This document shows positions 18,637-48,021 of a DNA stretch of 48,021 bases, piece after piece. The position numbers and the translations under genes are program-made. The stretch spans positions 3,421,465 through 3,469,485 of the forward strand of contig LR026961.1 in NCBI GenBank assembly GCA_900498135.1, read 5' to 3'. Position 1 is the first letter of the stretch, and each line of letters begins with the position of its first letter. The stretch is from an uncultured Desulfatiglans sp. Its GTDB lineage: Bacteria; Desulfobacterota; DSM-4660; Desulfatiglandales; Desulfatiglandaceae. The notes beneath the pieces were generated by a model that made no database searches, had not been told where the DNA came from, and saw only the letters and a program-made list of their open reading frames with translations.

Positions 18637-18657
18637 CGTGAGGGTGGGCGAATGCCT

Positions 18658-19077
18658 CTATTTCCGCAGTGGGATCTCCCATTTCTTATTGTATTTCCAG
18701 ACCGCGGTGCGGCTTACGCCGAGGCGGCGACCGGCCTCGGCCTTGTTCCAGGCGCATTCGTCGAGGAGTTCGAGCAGGCCGTCGCGGGTGAGCGGCTGGG
18801 GCGGCCAGCCGCTGTTCGCGGGCGGGGCCTCCTGCGGGAGGAGGCCGGCCTCCTCCGCCTCGTGGCGCGCCTTCTGCAGCTCCGTCAGGTCCGTAACCGT
18901 CTCGACGACGCCCTCGATCGTTCCCTGCTCATCCCTGACGAGCCGGGCGCTCTTGATGACCGGCACGTCGTGCCCGTCTTTGTGGCGCAGGAAACACTCC
19001 CTCCCGTCGAGGCGTCCATAGGTGAGGATGCCGCATTCAGAATAGGCGTTGAAGGACGGAAAAGCGGTTTTTTTCAA
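18658..19077 (-). pseudogene. Doubly deleted copy of the sigma-54 activator (PAS fragment plus Fis HTH, no AAA+ domain)
   Basis: A 139-codon open frame nearly identical to two separate parts of the activator at 23983-25368. It keeps residues about 70-134 (end of PAS, '[14 protein letters not shown]') joined directly to residues about 402-461 (Fis-type helix-turn-helix, '[20 protein letters not shown]'). The whole AAA+ ATPase and the start of the PAS domain are lost. Both junctions keep the frame. The first codons ([12 protein letters not shown]) come from sequence matching the region just upstream of the intact gene. A small HTH protein could still be made and might compete for DNA sites, but decay is the simpler reading. 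Confidence 0.8.
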
Positions 19078-20539: not shown

Positions 20540-20785
20540 CTATGCGCGCAGGATCGACTCCCCGTACTGCAGCACGTTCGCGTCGGCGGAAAGAAGGGAT
20601 ATGCCTTCCGTTTTTGCCTGCGCAATGAGGATGCGACCGAGTTTGATCACGATTTCCCAGATGCTCGCAGCGCTGAAAAGAAGCGTGTTTTGGGGAGAGG
20701 TCAGCAGCGAACGGGCCTTCACCGAAAGCTTCTCAGGCTCGCCGGCAGCCCAAAGGAGAACATGGGTGTCCAGGAGAAGCTTCAC
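20540..20785 (-). pseudogene. PIN-domain (VapC-type) toxin with internal in-frame deletion
   Basis: The N-terminal part matches VapC-like PIN proteins: 'LLLDTHVLLWAAGEPEKLS' with the first catalytic Asp, then 'LLFSAASIWEIVIKLGR' with the conserved Glu. The sequence then jumps directly to 'ILIAQAKTEGISLLSADANVLQYG', the normal C-terminal part. About 45 residues between, including the conserved Asp of the 'DPFDR' region, are missing, so the product is 81 instead of about 125-130 residues. The frame is kept. The upstream antitoxin gene overlaps it by 4 bp and looks intact. RNase activity is unlikely. Confidence 0.78.
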
Positions 20786-21030
20786 TTGGTTCGGCCTTCG
20801 AAAAGCTCGAGGATCTGGGAGGCCCCCAGCGTATCGAAATCATCCGGGGTGAGGATCTGATCCCTCAAGAATCCGAGCCTGCCGGCGACACCCCGCTCCT
20901 CTTGGGACAAGGGCAGGACCTTCACCATCGGCTTGCCGGCCTTGGCGATGATAAAAGCGTTGCCGCGCGCCGCTTCCTCGACCAGGCGGGACAGGTTTGT
21001 TTTGGCCTCATGGATATTGTACGTTTGCAT
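20782..21030 (-). CDS. Phd/YefM-family antitoxin
   Basis: An 82-residue antitoxin: N-terminal 'MQTYNIHEAKTNLSRLVEEAARG' DNA-binding fold with 'AFIIAKAGKPMVKVLPL', then a C-terminal toxin-binding tail ending in 'ILELFEGRTK'. Its last codon overlaps the PIN toxin start (ATGA, 20782-20785). It probably represses its own promoter (21064-21092). With the toxin deleted it may persist as an orphan, perhaps acting as an anti-addiction module or repressor. Confidence 0.85.
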   Translation of the reverse strand: MQTYNIHEAKTNLSRLVEEAARGNAFIIAKAGKPMVKVLPLSQEERGVAGRLGFLRDQILTPDDFDTLGASQILELFEGRTK

Positions 21031-23367: not shown

Positions 23368-23967
23368 CTACCTCTGATATTGGCTCATGATTCGGTCGAC
23401 TTCGCGCCAGAAATCATGGAGCAACTCGCCTGCAGATTCGTATTCGTAGGGGGAAATGACATTGAATTCATGTTTGTGATCCCAGGAAATTTTCCTGGCG
23501 CCGTAGCGCTTGGTCTTGGGTTTGAAGGCGTGTGCATTGTCAAAGCCAAGCAGTCGCCGGTTGTTTCGGTCGTGCAAGGTCAGGCAATACCGGACTCCAT
23601 GAGGGATATGGGGTTCCGGGGCGACCCGGAACGCCTCGAATTTTGTCCAATAACCCTTATCCATAAAGAAAATCTCACCATCCAAATTCAGCAAGGTGGC
23701 AAGGCTTTCATCGTCCTCAGAAGGTCGTCCGATCTCCATGTCGAAATAGATTATCACCAGGTGATAAGGTATGCAAGCTTTTTTCATGAGCGTGGGCTGT
23801 TTGCTGTTTAGAACCTTGGTGGGTTGCTCCTGGGCCAAGCCCACCTGTTTGCGGATTTCGGCCAGGTTGCTGTGCTTTAAGTTCTTCACGGTGTCGGCAT
23901 GGGGTTGCCCAAGGGCGGGGTCCGGAATCCGCAGCAAATTGACTACGAGGGTCAGCGTTCCCTGCAT
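23368..23967 (-). CDS. TumE-like (DUF6516) toxin-family protein
   Basis: The part from about residue 61 onward (Met at 23787) is a DUF6516/TumE-type protein: 'LLNLDGEIFFMDKGYWTKFEAFRV', 'HGVRYCLTLHDRNNRRLLGFDNAHA' and 'HKHEFNVISPYEYESAGELLHDFWREVD'. The His and Asp residues in 'FDNAH' and 'WDHKHEF' resemble the family's conserved positions. The first 60 residues do not look like the family and may be a fused scar or simply an upstream extension. Neither start has a strong ribosome-binding site. The long start lies 15 bp after the stop of the sigma-54 activator. The HTH antitoxin follows 4 bp downstream. Confidence 0.75.
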   Translation of the reverse strand: MQGTLTLVVNLLRIPDPALGQPHADTVKNLKHSNLAEIRKQVGLAQEQPTKVLNSKQPTLMKKACIPYHLVIIYFDMEIGRPSEDDESLATLLNLDGEIFFMDKGYWTKFEAFRVAPEPHIPHGVRYCLTLHDRNNRRLLGFDNAHAFKPKTKRYGARKISWDHKHEFNVISPYEYESAGELLHDFWREVDRIMSQYQR

Positions 23968-23982
23968 GGCGGGCGCATGCCT

Positions 23983-25368
23983 CTATTTCCGCAGTGGGAT
24001 CCCCCATTTCTTCATGTACTTCCAGACCGCGGTGCGGCTTACGCCGAGGCGGCGGCCGGCCTCGGCCTTGTTCCAGGCGCATTCGTCGAGGAGTTCGAGC
24101 AGGCCGTCGCGGGTGAGCGGCTGGGGCGGCCAGCCGCTTTTCGCGGGCGGGGCCTCCTGCGGGAGGGGGGCGGGGCGGTAGGCGAAGCGGCGGATCTCGA
24201 CTGGCAGATCGAAGACGTCGATATAGTCTCCGGCGCACAGGACGAAGGCATGCTCGATGGCGTTTTCGAGTTCACGCGCATTGCCCGGCCAGGGGTAGTC
24301 CATCAGGATCCGCATGGAACTCTTCGTGGCGCCTTTGATGGCCAGGCCGGTCTTGCGGTTTTGCAGTTCGATGAAGTGGGTGACGAGCCAGGGGATGTCC
24401 TCCTTGCGCTCGCGCAGGGGCGGGATGAGGATCGGGAACACCTTGAGCCGGTAAAAGAGATCCTCCCGGAAGGCGCCCTGCTGGACCTGGGTGAGGAGGT
24501 CCTTGTTGGTGGCGGCGATGATCCGGATGTCGATCCTGCGCTTGCGGGATTCCCCGACGCGTTCGATTTCCCGCTCCTGTACGACCCTCAGGAGCTTCAC
24601 CTGAATGAACGGGCTGATCTCGGCGATCTCGTCCAGGAAGATCGTTCCCCCGTCGGCCTCTTCGAAGCGGCCGACCCGGTCGCGGATGGCCCCGGTGAAG
24701 GCCCCTTTGACATGCCCGAAGAGTTCGCTTTCAAGGAGCGTCTCAGAGAGCGCGCTGCAGTTGACGGTAACGAAGGGCATGTTTTTCCGGGCGCTGTGGT
24801 GGTGGATGGCGCTGGCGACGAGTTCCTTGCCGGTGCCGCTTTCGCCCTGGACGAGGATGGTGGCCTCGCTCGCCGCGGCCGCCTCGATGGCCGAGAAGAC
24901 CTGCTGCATGGCGTGGCTCTTGCCGATGATCTGGTCGAAGCGGTGGGTCTCGCCGAGGCGCCGGGCGGCCTCCTCCGCCTCGTGGCGAGCCTTCTGGAGC
25001 TCCGTGAGGTCCGTAACCGTCTCGACGACGCCCTTGATCGTTCCCTGCTCATCCCTGACGAGCCGGGCGCTCTTGATGACCGGCACGTCGTACCCGTCTT
25101 TGTGGCGCAGGAAACACTCCCTCCCGTCGAGGCGCCCATAGGTGAGGATGCCGCATTCGGAGATGCCGGTCGGGCAGCTTGCCTGAAAGCACTCGGTGAA
25201 GTTCAGGAGGGCGCAGGGCTGCCCGATCGCCTCCTCGGCGCTGTAACCCGTGATCCGTTCGATCGACGGGTTCCAGGAGGTGATCCGCCCCTGTTCATCG
25301 AGGGTGAACACCCCGTCGGCCATGGACTCGAGCAGCAGGCTCGAAAATCTGGGATCCAGTGTCCGCAT
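23983..25368 (-). CDS. PAS-containing sigma-54-dependent transcriptional activator
   Basis: A 461-residue enhancer-binding protein. It has an N-terminal PAS domain (about 10-130), a short linker, then the AAA+ domain: Walker A 'GESGTGKE' (about 175-182), the sigma-54 contact loop 'GAFTGA' (about 222-227), and Walker B 'GGTIFLDE' (about 240-247). A Fis-type helix-turn-helix (about 420-458) is at the C-terminus. All signature elements are intact, so it should activate sigma-54 RNA polymerase in response to a cytosolic signal sensed by PAS. It is divergent from the thioredoxin gene, and a near-consensus sigma-54 promoter lies after that gene (25998-26012). A deleted copy sits at 18658-19077. Confidence 0.95.
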
Positions 25369-25402
25369 AGGCGTTGAAGGACGGAAAAGCGGTTGTTTTA
25401 CG

Positions 25403-25476
25403 GCCGCCTTTCGCGGTCCGGAAAATGGGTTTTATCCGTGCCGCCTTTCCCGGTCCGGAAAATGGGTTTTATCCGT
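25403..25476. repeat. 37-bp tandem repeat (2 copies) upstream of the sigma-54 activator
   Basis: Units at 25403-25439 and 25440-25476 differ at one base. They lie between the activator start codon and the GTAACGTTAC palindrome, so they form its 5' leader or regulatory region. Confidence 0.85.
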
Positions 25477-25503
25477 TGCAGGATGAACCGGCATAAAGAA
25501 TAA

Positions 25504-25513
25504 GTAACGTTAC
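25504..25513. promoter_or_regulatory. GTAACGTTAC palindrome (candidate operator)
   Basis: A perfect 10-bp palindrome downstream of a TTGACA hexamer read on the minus strand (reverse complement near 25531-25536). It would sit in the spacer of an activator promoter. The half-site recurs four times at 26223-26266. Confidence 0.45.
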
Positions 25514-25644
25514 CGGGTTCCTTTGTCAAGGATATCGCGGGCCGAGCGGGAGCCTGATGGCGATGTGCGGCACAATAATTGAAGTAGCTCGAAGGATGCA
25601 GGAGTTCACAGAGGTGTCGGCGGGTTCGCTTCGGGCGCCTGGGG

Positions 25645-25989
25645 ATGGAGAGAGGATTGGGTTTGATCTCGGAAAAGAAGGCGGGAAAGTTACACAGGGG
25701 GAAAGACCATGGGTTGACGGTGGTCCATTTCGGCGCCCCCTGGTGTGCGCCCTGCTCCCTTCAGGATCCGATCATGAGGGAGCTTTCCAGGCGGTACAGG
25801 GGCAGGGTGCGCATGGCCGCGGTCGATATCGACCGGAACCCGGATGCGGCCGTGCAGCTCGGGATCGAGTGCATTCCGACCGTGGTGATCTTCCGGGATG
25901 GCTTAGAAGTGAAGCGCTTCCTGGGACTTCAATCGGCTGACGTTCTTTCGGCCGCCATCCGCTCGATCCAGGGCGCAGAAGAGGCGTGA
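25645..25989 (+). CDS. Thioredoxin-family protein
   Basis: A 114-residue single-domain thioredoxin fold: active site 'WCAPC' (about 33-37) on 'VVHFGAPWCAPC', cis-proline in 'ECIPTVVIF' (about Pro78), and C-terminal helix. There is no signal peptide, so it is a cytosolic dithiol-disulphide oxidoreductase. The WCAPC motif differs from the classical WCGPC. It is divergent from the sigma-54 activator gene. A sigma-54 promoter begins 9 bp after its stop, so what follows is likely a separate transcript. It may receive electrons from the FTR-type reductase encoded at 43.2 kb, but that is speculation. Confidence 0.88.
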   Translation: MERGLGLISEKKAGKLHRGKDHGLTVVHFGAPWCAPCSLQDPIMRELSRRYRGRVRMAAVDIDRNPDAAVQLGIECIPTVVIFRDGLEVKRFLGLQSADVLSAAIRSIQGAEEA

Positions 25990-25996
25990 AGAGTTC

Positions 25997-26012
25997 TTGG
26001 CACAAGTTTTGC
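25997..26012 (+). promoter_or_regulatory. Sigma-54 (-24/-12) promoter
   Basis: TTGGCACA-AGTT-TTGC matches the sigma-54 consensus with exact spacing: the -24 GG is at 25999-26000 and the -12 GC at 26011-26012. The expected start is near 26024. A sigma-54 activator gene is encoded 0.6 kb away. Confidence 0.8.
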
Positions 26013-26023
26013 TTTTAAAGTAT

Positions 26024-26126
26024 TCAACAGAAACAGCGGTTCGTTTGCCATAACCTCTAACCTTAACCCTCCTGATCCAGGGCGGGGCATGCAAGGGAAA
26101 CGGTGCGCCTTGCATGCCCCGTTTCC
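26024..26126 (+). ncRNA. Candidate sigma-54-dependent small RNA
   Basis: The interval from the predicted start to a large hairpin holds no gene. A perfect 14-bp stem (26083-26096 with 26108-26121, 11-nt loop) is followed by GTTTCCTTCC. An overlapping alternative stem GGAAACGG/CCGTTTCC (26096-26103 with 26119-26126) competes with it. An unpaired CCCTCCT at 26067-26073 could pair with ribosome-binding sites. It may instead be an attenuating leader of the DUF5320 operon or the thioredoxin terminator. Confidence 0.45.
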
Positions 26127-26222
26127 TTCCAAGCGTTCCAGAAAACAGCCTCGCCGAGGTCCGGCGGGCTTGACAGAACGAAAAGAAAGACTCCTTCTCC
26201 CTGCAGCCCTTCGAAAAGATAG

Positions 26223-26266
26223 CGTTACTTATACCGTTACGGAACGTTACAAAATGCTGGGTAACG
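26223..26266. promoter_or_regulatory. Cluster of CGTTAC half-sites
   Basis: CGTTAC at 26223, 26235 and 26245 and GTAACG at 26261, within 44 bp. The 10-mer CGTTACTTAT is shared with the palindrome region at 25502-25512 (opposite strand). Candidate operator for the downstream DUF5320/DUF1638 genes. Confidence 0.45.
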
Positions 26267-26464
26267 GTTTGCTTTGGAGTTCGAGCGCATGGATCTAAGG
26301 GCGTAAATGGTTGGGTAGGGCCGTCTGCGGCCTGGGAGCCGGGGAGGCGTCGATGGAGGTGCGAGCGGCATACATCTTGATGCATGATGAGGGGGATGGC
26401 GCGGCGTGATTTCTGCGTCCTACGCCGCGATGATTCAGTGAAAAACGAGCAAGGAGGTGTTTCG

Positions 26465-26692
26465 ATGCCTAGAGGAGATGGAACAGGTCCAAGGGGACAG
26501 GGGCCCGGAACGGGCAGAGGCACGGGGGGAAGAGGCGGCGGAGGCGGCGGAGGCCGTGGTGGTGGATTCGGGGCCGGTCCAGGCGGCAACTGCGTCTGCC
26601 CCAACTGCGGCGCGAAGGCGCCGCACGAACTGGGGGTTCCCTGCTATCAGCAGGCTTGTCCGCAGTGCGGTGCAGCGATGACACGAGAGTAG
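26465..26692 (+). CDS. DUF5320-like glycine-rich zinc-ribbon protein
   Basis: A 75-residue protein. The N-terminus 'MPRGDGTGPRGQGPGTGRG' is the DUF5320 signature, followed by a long Gly-rich linker and a C-terminal double CxxC zinc-ribbon ('CVCPNCG' and 'ACPQCG'). ATG 26465 is chosen because AAGGAGGT lies at the right distance upstream (26450-26457); the frame extends further upstream but without family features. Such proteins occur in anaerobes near nitrogenase-accessory (Mrp/NBP35-like) iron-sulphur genes; the function is unknown. The roughly 475 bp before it hold a sigma-54 promoter, a hairpin and CGTTAC repeats. Confidence 0.8.
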   Translation: MPRGDGTGPRGQGPGTGRGTGGRGGGGGGGRGGGFGAGPGGNCVCPNCGAKAPHELGVPCYQQACPQCGAAMTRE

Positions 26693-26842
26693 TGCAGCCG
26701 CCCACGGGGGTCATCGAGCGGCGGCCGAGCGGAGCCGGATGGGCAGCGGCGCAGCCTGTGGGGTGTGCGGGTCCCTGTTCTGCGGTGGGACGCATGGTTC
26801 GCGGACCGGGAGGGCGACAACAAGAGGGAAGGAGATCTGTGA

Positions 26843-27496
26843 ATGGACACCGTATCGTTTGCCGAGATCGCTGTGGTCTCATGCGGCACATTGAGTTTAG
26901 AGCTGAACTACTTGAGAAAAGAAGGATTTCTTGATACGCAGCATCTCTTTTACACGACCCCGGGCCTTCACGAGGACTGCAAGGAGCTCGAGCGGCAGCT
27001 GGTCGACCGGATCCAGCGGGCCAAGGAAAAGGCGGACAAGGTGCTGGTCGTCTACGGCGGCAAGTTCTGCTACGTCAATGCGGACAACCCGACGCGGACG
27101 ATGCGCACGATCATCTCCGAGCAGGGGAAGGGGGTGGCGCGGATCGAGGCCACGCACTGCATGGACATGATCGCGGGGGAGGAGGAGCGCGAGCGGATCG
27201 CCCAGGAGATGGCGGGTGGCGAGAAGGTTTGGTGGATGACGCCGGGTTGGATCCAGTTCCGTCACCAGGTGTTCAAGGGCTGGGACCAGGGGCTGGCGAA
27301 CGAGAACTTCCCTCGGCACACCGGCGGAGCGATCGTGCTCGACGGCATCGGCTTCCTCGATACGTACATGGCCGAGAAACCGGAGGAGTTCCTGGAGTAC
27401 TCCGACTGGATGGGGATCCCGATCCAGCCCTGTCCCGTCACCCTCGACCGGTTCAAGTCGCTGCTCCTCGATCAGGCGAAAAAACTTCTGGCCTGA
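26843..27496 (+). CDS. DUF1638 domain protein
   Basis: A 217-residue protein of the DUF1638 family: early 'VVSCGTLSLELNYL', central 'VVYGGKFCYVN', 'RIEATHCMDMIAG', 'MTPGWIQF', and a C-terminal 'ANENFPRHTGGAIVLDGIGFLD' region. The Cys and His residues (CGT, THC) could bind a metal or cofactor. Family members occur in methanogens and anaerobic bacteria near corrinoid methyltransferase genes, but no such gene is in this window and the role is unknown. There is a good ribosome site (GGAAGGAGA). A palindromic mobile element is inserted at its stop codon (TGA 27494-27496 is part of the flanking direct repeat). Confidence 0.85.
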   Translation: MDTVSFAEIAVVSCGTLSLELNYLRKEGFLDTQHLFYTTPGLHEDCKELERQLVDRIQRAKEKADKVLVVYGGKFCYVNADNPTRTMRTIISEQGKGVARIEATHCMDMIAGEEERERIAQEMAGGEKVWWMTPGWIQFRHQVFKGWDQGLANENFPRHTGGAIVLDGIGFLDTYMAEKPEEFLEYSDWMGIPIQPCPVTLDRFKSLLLDQAKKLLA

Positions 27497-27596
27497 GTCG
27501 TTTCCATCCGGAAATGGTCTTTTTGGCCCATCTCGGCGTCAATCTGCACGTTTGCTTGTGCGGCGACCACCAGGTCGCCTCCGCGCAAACGCTGGA

Positions 27597-27736
27597 TTTC
27601 CATCCGGAAATGGTCTTTTTGGCCAATCTCGGCGTCAATCTGCACGTTTGCTTGTGCGGCGACCTGCAGGTCGCCTCCGCGCAAACGCTTGATTTCCTTG
27701 ATATTGGCCAAAAATCCTCATTTCCGGATTGGAAAC
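27597..27736. repeat. 140-bp nested palindrome (core unit)
   Basis: Arms read outward from an exact centre at GACCTGCAGGTC (27661-27672): GCAAACG/CGTTTGC, TTTTGGCCAAT/ATTGGCCAAAA, and GTTTCCAATCCGGAAAT/ATTTCCGGATTGGAAAC with small bulges. It would form a very long hairpin in RNA or single-stranded DNA. Confidence 0.85.
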
Positions 27737-27840
27737 CGAGTTCTAACGGAAAATCATTTCCGGATTGGAAACTGAGTTCTACCGGGAAATCATTTCCGGA
27801 TTGGAAACTGAGTTCTACCGGAAAATCATTTCCGGATGGA
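27720..27840 (+). repeat. 36-bp minisatellite, three units plus terminal partial
   Basis: Units at 27720-27755, 27756-27791 and 27792-27827 differ at 1-3 bases, then 13 bp of the terminal inverted repeat. Other copies of the element have fewer units or degenerate ones. Confidence 0.9.
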
Positions 27841-29799: not shown

Positions 29800-29844
29800 G
29801 GCAGGCGCGCCGCGCCGGTCCTCGGGGGATTCCGACGTCAAGTT

Positions 29845-30066
29845 TCCATCCGGAAATGGTCTTTTTGGCCAATCTCGGCGTCAATCTGCACGTTTGCTTG
29901 TGCGGCGACCTGCAGGTCGCCTCCGCGTAAACACTTGATTTCCTTGATATTGGCCAAACCGGGACCCGCCCCGCAGGGGTGGGACTGAGCACGCGCAGCG
30001 TGTAAAGAAAAATCCTCATTTCCGGATTGGAAACCGGGTTTTGCCTGGAAATCATTTCCGGATGGA
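29845..30066 (+). mobile_element. MITE-like palindromic element, second copy with insertion
   Basis: Starts with TCCATCCGGAAATG and ends with CATTTCCGGATGGA. The left arm and centre (GACCTGCAGGTC) match the 27.6-kb copy. About 50 bp (29958-30007) separate ATTGGCCAAA from the outer right arm, and only one 36-bp unit follows. The right end lies 40 bp before the kinase start codon, so it forms that gene's leader. No convincing target duplication is visible. Confidence 0.75.
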
Positions 30067-47814: not shown

Positions 47815-48021
47815 ACTTCTCCATCCAAAATGCGCTGTTACTCCATCCGGCAATGTTTTTTCACTCGGCAGGCCCCGTTTCCCCATCCGCAAAAGGCTCC
47901 TTACCAGGCACGAGCCGCTTCCCCGGCCGGAAATGAGGATTTTTGGCCAATATCAAGGAAATCCAGCGTTTGTGCGGAGGCGACCTGTAGGTCGCCGCAC
48001 AAACAAACGTGCAGATTGACG
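47815..48021 (-). mobile_element. Palindromic element copy, reverse orientation, cut by window end
   Basis: On the plus strand, degenerate 36-bp-like units (47815-47920) are followed by the outer arm GGAAATGAGGATTTTTGGCCAAT and the centre GACCTGTAGGTC (47982-47993). It then runs into the left arm, cut by the window edge at 48021. Same order as the 27.6-kb copy read in reverse. Confidence 0.8.

Follow-up and report, generated by a model that had tools for sequence, protein, structure and literature searches.

This locus raises the question of what a sigma-54 promoter drives when it directly follows a thioredoxin gene and 440 nt separate it from the next gene. It lies in a 48,021-nt stretch from the genome of an uncultured Desulfatiglans sp. 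(contig LR026961.1), the whole of which we analysed and here call the window, and a preliminary description had suggested either a sigma-54-controlled small RNA or an attenuator. The small RNA is supported by the promoter statistics, by a second RNA in the same genome (sRNA-B) and by a layout that recurs across the phylum, while the fold energies speak against the attenuator. On balance, we consider it rather probable that the locus encodes a sigma-54-dependent small RNA of ~105 nt, sRNA-A, acting through CCCUCCU on ribosome-binding sites. In the proposed mechanism, sigma-54 polymerase would bind at 25997-26012 and stay idle until triggered by an AAA+ activator, and a non-coding transcript (~26024-26128 by its predicted 5' and 3' ends) would then be made, presumably terminating at the 14-bp GC-rich hairpin with its C/U-rich tail. 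Its C-rich leader, which ends in CCCUCCU, would pair in trans with AGGAGG sites of target mRNAs, so that translation of these putative targets would be lowered while the activator's signal is on. Table 1 gives the coordinates.

Table 1. Predicted features of the sRNA-A locus and its surroundings (window positions).
Feature	Position	Strand	Basis
ACT, activator gene (PAS, sigma-54 interaction (AAA+), Fis-type HTH)	23983..25368	-	PF00989, PF00158 (1e-71), PF02954
GTAACGTTAC, probable ACT enhancer site	25504..25513	.	GTTAC/GTAAC density
Thioredoxin gene	25645..25989	+	PF00085, 2.8e-19
Sigma-54 promoter TTGGCACAAGTTTTGC	25997..26012	+	weight-matrix score, genome-wide rarity; start predicted ~26024
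sRNA-A, predicted small RNA of ~105 nt	26024..26128	+	promoter position and terminal hairpin; ends inferred
CCCTCCT, candidate anti-Shine-Dalgarno seed, last CCT partly paired	26067..26073	+	sequence, fold probabilities
Candidate terminator: perfect 14-bp hairpin followed by TTTCCTTCC	26083..26121	+	inverted-repeat search, shuffles
Alternative 8-bp stem, excludes the 14-bp stem; probably unused	26096-26103/26119-26126	+	fold energies
GTTAC/GTAAC cluster (four half-sites within 42 bp), probably a second ACT enhancer	26224..26265	.	shuffle test
Weak sigma-54-like site CGGCGTGATTTCTGCG, possible GRICH-DUF1638 operon promoter	26402..26417	+	position, likeness to relatives' sites
GRICH, small Gly-rich zinc-ribbon-like gene, RBS AAGGAGGTG	26465..26692	+	first gene downstream, 440 nt from predicted start
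DUF1638 gene	26843..27496	+	PF07796, 3.4e-23

The promoter reads T25997-T-GG(25999-26000)-CACAAGTTTT-GC(26011-26012), also written TTGGCACA-AGTT-TTGC. Its GG-N10-GC spacing is exact, its flanks equal the consensus, and it begins 7 bp past the thioredoxin stop codon (TGA, 25987-25989), which bears out the -24/-12 element, the consensus spacing and the position of the preliminary description. Scored with an ad hoc weight matrix, it reaches 21.0 of a maximum of 21.7, against 19.0 for the runner-up in the 48-kb window, and is the window's best sigma-54 site by a clear margin. The strict consensus TTGGCACN5TTGC occurs 6 times in the 4.8-Mb genome and never in the reversed control; with one base fewer (TGGCACN5TTGC), the counts are 23 and 5, respectively. 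One of these looser sites (L158) precedes a gene that by eye appears to encode an ammonium transporter, a type of gene classically under sigma-54 control. All five remaining strict sites lie 35-160 nt ahead of gene starts, and the site at 25997 is the exception, as 440 nt containing a strong hairpin separate its predicted start from the next gene.

This hairpin is a perfect stem of 14 bp (17 bp counting G-U pairs; arms 26083-26096 and 26108-26121, loop of 11 nt) that starts ~56-60 nt past the predicted transcription start, where the preliminary description had placed it. No other perfect, non-overlapping inverted repeat of at least 12 bp with a loop of up to 25 nt was found in the 48 kb of the window, and the longest one in 2000 dinucleotide shuffles of 26024-26135 had 10 bp. 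The tail that follows, TTTCCTTCC, is pyrimidine-rich without being a true U-run, and is weaker than the U-runs of most of the relatives described below. We rejected a REP-like, dispersed or mobile hairpin, as the element is single-copy in the genome at up to 3 mismatches. Rfam covariance models gave no match in the window at gathering scores, two sub-threshold miRNA matches being dismissed as chance, and no tRNA or tmRNA was found.

The activator gene ACT is divergent from the thioredoxin gene, and 14 further genomes of the family carry orthologs of it at 68-75% identity. A PAS-type sigma-54 activator had been described as encoded next door; it is indeed encoded nearby, yet the thioredoxin gene lies between it and the promoter. 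The genome holds at least 36 matches to the AAA+ domain of such activators, and the one acting on sRNA-A may be ACT or another. No enhancer was found at the usual 80-200 bp upstream of the 25997 promoter. In the 350 bp preceding ACT, the words GTTAC/GTAAC reach a density of 10.0 per kb, compared to 0.94 elsewhere, and because all 14 orthologous loci are rich in them, they are probably ACT enhancer sites; as a single long word (GTTACNGTAACGTTAC), the UAS consensus gave no signal above control genome-wide. The downstream cluster packs four half-sites into 45 bp, whereas 100 shuffles of the window never gave more than two in such a length. Relative to the 25997 promoter, one cluster, a single pair at 25504, is 490 bp upstream and the other 225-265 bp downstream, the latter being 135-175 bp ahead of the weak site at 26402-26417, and such a distance between enhancer and sigma-54 promoter is the usual geometry. 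By their positions, the clusters fit the weaker promoter near 26403 better than the one at 25997. The weak site overlaps an inverted repeat and resembles TGGCGTGAAAATTGCT and TGGCGTGGAAATTGCA, which in relatives stand just before the GRICH ortholog (L047) and upstream of a NifX-like gene that GRICH follows (L048). Based on the position of this cluster and on the likeness of the L047 and L048 sites, ACT may serve GRICH-DUF1638.

Several other observations concern this neighbourhood. In relatives, ACT is divergent from the thioredoxin gene, which is followed by an old-yellow-enzyme-like oxidoreductase gene, in some by ferredoxin, and then by DUF1638 (68-84% identity). Most relatives have the oxidoreductase; it is absent from the window, where 25989-26843 carries a non-coding stretch and GRICH instead. 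Before the thioredoxin gene, ~11 relatives share a conserved element, TGGCACG-ATTA-TTGA, at the place of 25568-25582 (CGGCACAATAATTGA in the window), which resembles a sigma-54 promoter with GA in place of the GC at -12. Two near-identical direct copies of GCCGCCTTTC(G/C)CGGTCCGGAAAATGGGTTTTATCCGT stand at 25405-25480, just before the ACT start, and fragments of ACT are repeated at 18643-19041, 23983-24063 and 25229-25421, arranged differently in the sister genome G001, as remnants of duplication or recombination. Dispersed repeats at 27500-27773, 29841-29958 and 47927-48021, with frames like SGNDFPVELSFQSGN and FPDWKLSSTGK, also occur elsewhere in the genome (L052, L140, L151). Finally, the minus strand encodes a PIN-like toxin with a Phd-like antitoxin by the look of the sequence (20540-21030) and a protein matching the TumE toxin (23368-23967; PF20126, 1.5e-06).

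G001, the only other genome of the genus in our comparison, is 99% identical at the locus, and it keeps the -24/-12 element, though at an identity too high to be informative. Between the thioredoxin gene and GRICH, it differs by one change in 475 bp, versus four in 276 bp upstream of the thioredoxin gene; the single change, C26120->T, replaces a G-C by a G-U pair in the stem. We do not take this low divergence as proof of sRNA-A: it spans the whole gap, its sole change falls in the stem, and it says little about an RNA. No alignable DNA for the locus was found in 59 other relatives searched. The conservation of the entire gap would suit the main rival explanation, in which the 25997 promoter drives the GRICH-DUF1638 operon through a 5' leader of 440 nt, the hairpin being a leader structure that perhaps causes partial termination. 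GRICH is also the first gene on this strand with a good ribosome-binding site, and in L047 a sigma-54-like promoter stands close before it. That promoter, however, is only ~50-80 nt from GRICH, and the window offers a comparable weak site of its own at 26402-26417, upstream of which the ACT cluster lies at a suitable distance. Moreover, the leaders behind the other strict sites measure 35-160 nt, and a perfect 14-bp stem would strongly block read-through. We regard a long operon leader as unlikely, if worth keeping in mind.

For the small RNA, further evidence comes from the same genome. Three of the 35 sigma-54 sites examined in it have a stem of at least 10 bp downstream, and two of these three also have CCTCC, namely sRNA-A and sRNA-B (G000:C1:3117310, minus strand). 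The latter repeats the layout of sRNA-A, with two CCTCC stretches, a terminal hairpin of 15 bp and a similar C/U-rich tail. Compared to G001, sRNA-B shows ~7 changes in the ~160 nt from promoter to tail and ~12% difference upstream. All three transcript changes beyond the first bases fall in the hairpin G[G/A]CCC[A/G]-CAACA-[T/C]GGGTC with pairing kept, and one pair is altered on both sides, from A-U to G-C, in a compensatory manner. Such a pattern has the look of a structured RNA under selection. A further site (L154, G000:C1:3383697) has a 15-bp hairpin 81 nt downstream, no near gene and no CCTCC, and is perhaps another small RNA.

The sRNA-B case also bears on a second, improbable alternative, in which the hairpin of the sRNA-A locus merely terminates the thioredoxin transcript and the -24/-12 match is unused or due to chance. 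The hairpin does lie 94 nt past the thioredoxin stop, and some looser consensus sites must be chance, given 5 matches in the control for 23 in the genome. Against this, the match at 25997 is near-perfect, rare and intergenic, the other strict sites all precede genes, and the pairing of promoter and hairpin is found again, and conserved, in sRNA-B. A terminator shared with the thioredoxin gene would in any case be compatible with a small RNA.

The attenuator of the preliminary description would be controlled by sigma-54 and would let the 14-bp and 8-bp stems alternate, thereby deciding on read-through into GRICH. The 8-bp stem does exist (26096-26103 with 26119-26126) and is incompatible with the 14-bp stem, as had been claimed, and the alternative fold would hide CCCTCCT. 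Yet 3.9% of shuffles contain a repeat of 8 bp, and the fold with the alternative stem reaches -32.2 kcal/mol versus -38.0 kcal/mol with the 14-bp stem, a gap of 5.8 kcal/mol. The 14-bp stem is also completed first, and we saw no upstream anti-stem or leader peptide that could unwind it, all of which makes a switch between competing stems very improbable. A pseudoknot of the two was rejected by reasoning, since both use 26096 and 26119-26121 and no linker spans the 14-bp stem. That the transcript encodes a small protein is hardly credible: a frame of 70 codons is open at 26089-26300, but it starts inside the stem behind a weak ribosome-binding site, its third-position GC is ~50% (by eye) in a GC-rich genome, and its sole change in G001 is non-synonymous (P to L, by eye).

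If sRNA-A is a regulator, CCCTCCT (26067-26073) is its candidate seed. It lies just ahead of the 14-bp stem, with a gap of 55 nt from TTGC, and had been described as an unpaired stretch able to block ribosome-binding sites. The predicted fold of sRNA-A, with its one dominant stem, agrees for the first half, as CCCT is mostly free (unpaired probability ~0.65-0.70), and disagrees for the last CCT (~0.2), which pairs in a small CCUG-AUC-CAGG hairpin. For an RNA of this class, blocking of ribosome-binding sites would be plausible, though the motif is partly paired here. Most of the 20 relatives computed have at least one mostly free CCTCC copy. In our model, either the first CCCU would suffice as a seed or the seed would open on contact. 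Six base pairs to any strong ribosome-binding site would carry little target information.

The same layout recurs well beyond the genus. With the pattern TGGCACN5TTGCTN{30,60}CCTCCT and its reversed version as a control, we obtained 16 matches versus 1 in 85 genomes of the class and 39 versus 9 in 395 genomes of the phylum. We set aside CCTCCT matches that fall within long open frames, among them L217 and L252. A stem of at least 10 bp lies within reach in 30 of the 48 entries examined, most with a U-run behind it. A sigma-54 activator gene is found within 1.6 kb of 14 of these 30 hairpin entries, which include near-identical pairs from closely related species; the share expected, roughly estimated from ~36 such genes in each genome, is a few percent. 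As CCTCCT is part of the search pattern, it is not independent evidence; the intergenic position, the terminator and the linkage to activators are. Twelve of the loci, mainly of the delta and gamma groups below, had no Rfam match up to E = 0.5.

The entries fall into several groups. The alpha group (L236-L243) reads TTGCT - CTCCCTATCCCTCCCAACCCTCCT - terminator, and most of its members come directly after a same-strand gene for a sigma-54 activator; the beta group (L246-L251) has AAGAG-AAACCAA-CTCTT-TCCTCCT; the gamma group (L196, L218, with L231 similar) is flanked on one side by a sigma-54 response regulator gene and on the other by one for an era-like GTPase; and the delta group (L211-L214, with L197 and L219) has a GGAATGAAG hairpin with CCTCC in its loop, followed by ACCTCCT. 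Terminator stems with pairs altered on both sides occur in the beta, delta and alpha groups. L236 comprises two tandem sigma-54/CCTCCT RNA genes 390 bp apart (G400:C2:451901 and 452290). The alpha group shares with sRNA-A the order of promoter, gap of 30-60 nt, CCTCCT and hairpin, and differs in its true U-run terminators, extra CCTCC copies and an activator directly upstream. The only good local match between sRNA-A and the four groups is to one copy of L236 (CATAACCTCTAACCTTAACCCTCCT; 0/500 shuffles, in one of 25 comparisons), other alpha members being weakly similar. Since the layout is found again across the phylum, sRNA-A probably belongs to a wider set of small RNAs, most of which are still uncharacterised.

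Qrr, GlmY/GlmZ and CrcZ are sigma-54-controlled small RNAs of gammaproteobacteria; they differ from sRNA-A in sequence and mode of action, and the window has no Rfam match. Closer by description is Pxr of Myxococcus xanthus, a lineage-restricted small non-coding RNA beside a gene for a sigma-54 activator/response regulator (nla19/pxrR), with its own predicted sigma-54 promoter from which it is apparently transcribed (PMC5568312, PMC5684412). Like sRNA-A, it thus combines such a promoter with a nearby activator gene. Pxr has, however, three stem-loops and a functional seed in a loop, where a change from C to A abolishes function (PMC5568312, PMC5684412), and it lies directly downstream of its activator, whereas sRNA-A has one dominant stem and the divergent thioredoxin gene stands between it and ACT. 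As far as the available parts of two reports go, the sigma-54 regulome of Desulfovibrio vulgaris includes four ncRNAs, at least two of them just downstream of their regulator gene: Dv_sRNA2 lies downstream of DVU0679, ncRNAs are also targets of DVU0653, DVU1419 and DVU2359, and expression of one ncRNA was confirmed by tiling array (PMC3333781, PMC4641369). These are likened to sRNA-A by description, as RNAs of a sulfate reducer from the former Deltaproteobacteria under sigma-54-dependent regulators; the same parts of PMC3333781 and PMC4641369 do not mention a CCUCC motif. Because of Pxr and the D. vulgaris ncRNAs, sigma-54 small RNAs beside activator genes are a known kind; a CCUCCU layout shared across groups was not found in the open-licence papers searched.

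Taken more broadly, we give an even chance to the hypothesis that Desulfobacterota possess, phylum-wide, sigma-54-dependent small RNAs that copy the anti-Shine-Dalgarno CCUCCU, often have their own enhancer-binding protein encoded alongside, and evolved independently several times (at least alpha, beta, gamma, delta, sRNA-B and sRNA-A), with the result that many activators would act partly via a built-in translational repressor RNA. The layout can serve as a simple rule for detecting such RNAs when nothing but sequence is at hand, any cultured species holding one would make it testable, and the set may include the known D. vulgaris ncRNAs. If many activators do drive small RNAs that mimic the ribosome in this way, their regulons would be partly translational, and this part would be missed by searches for promoters before genes.
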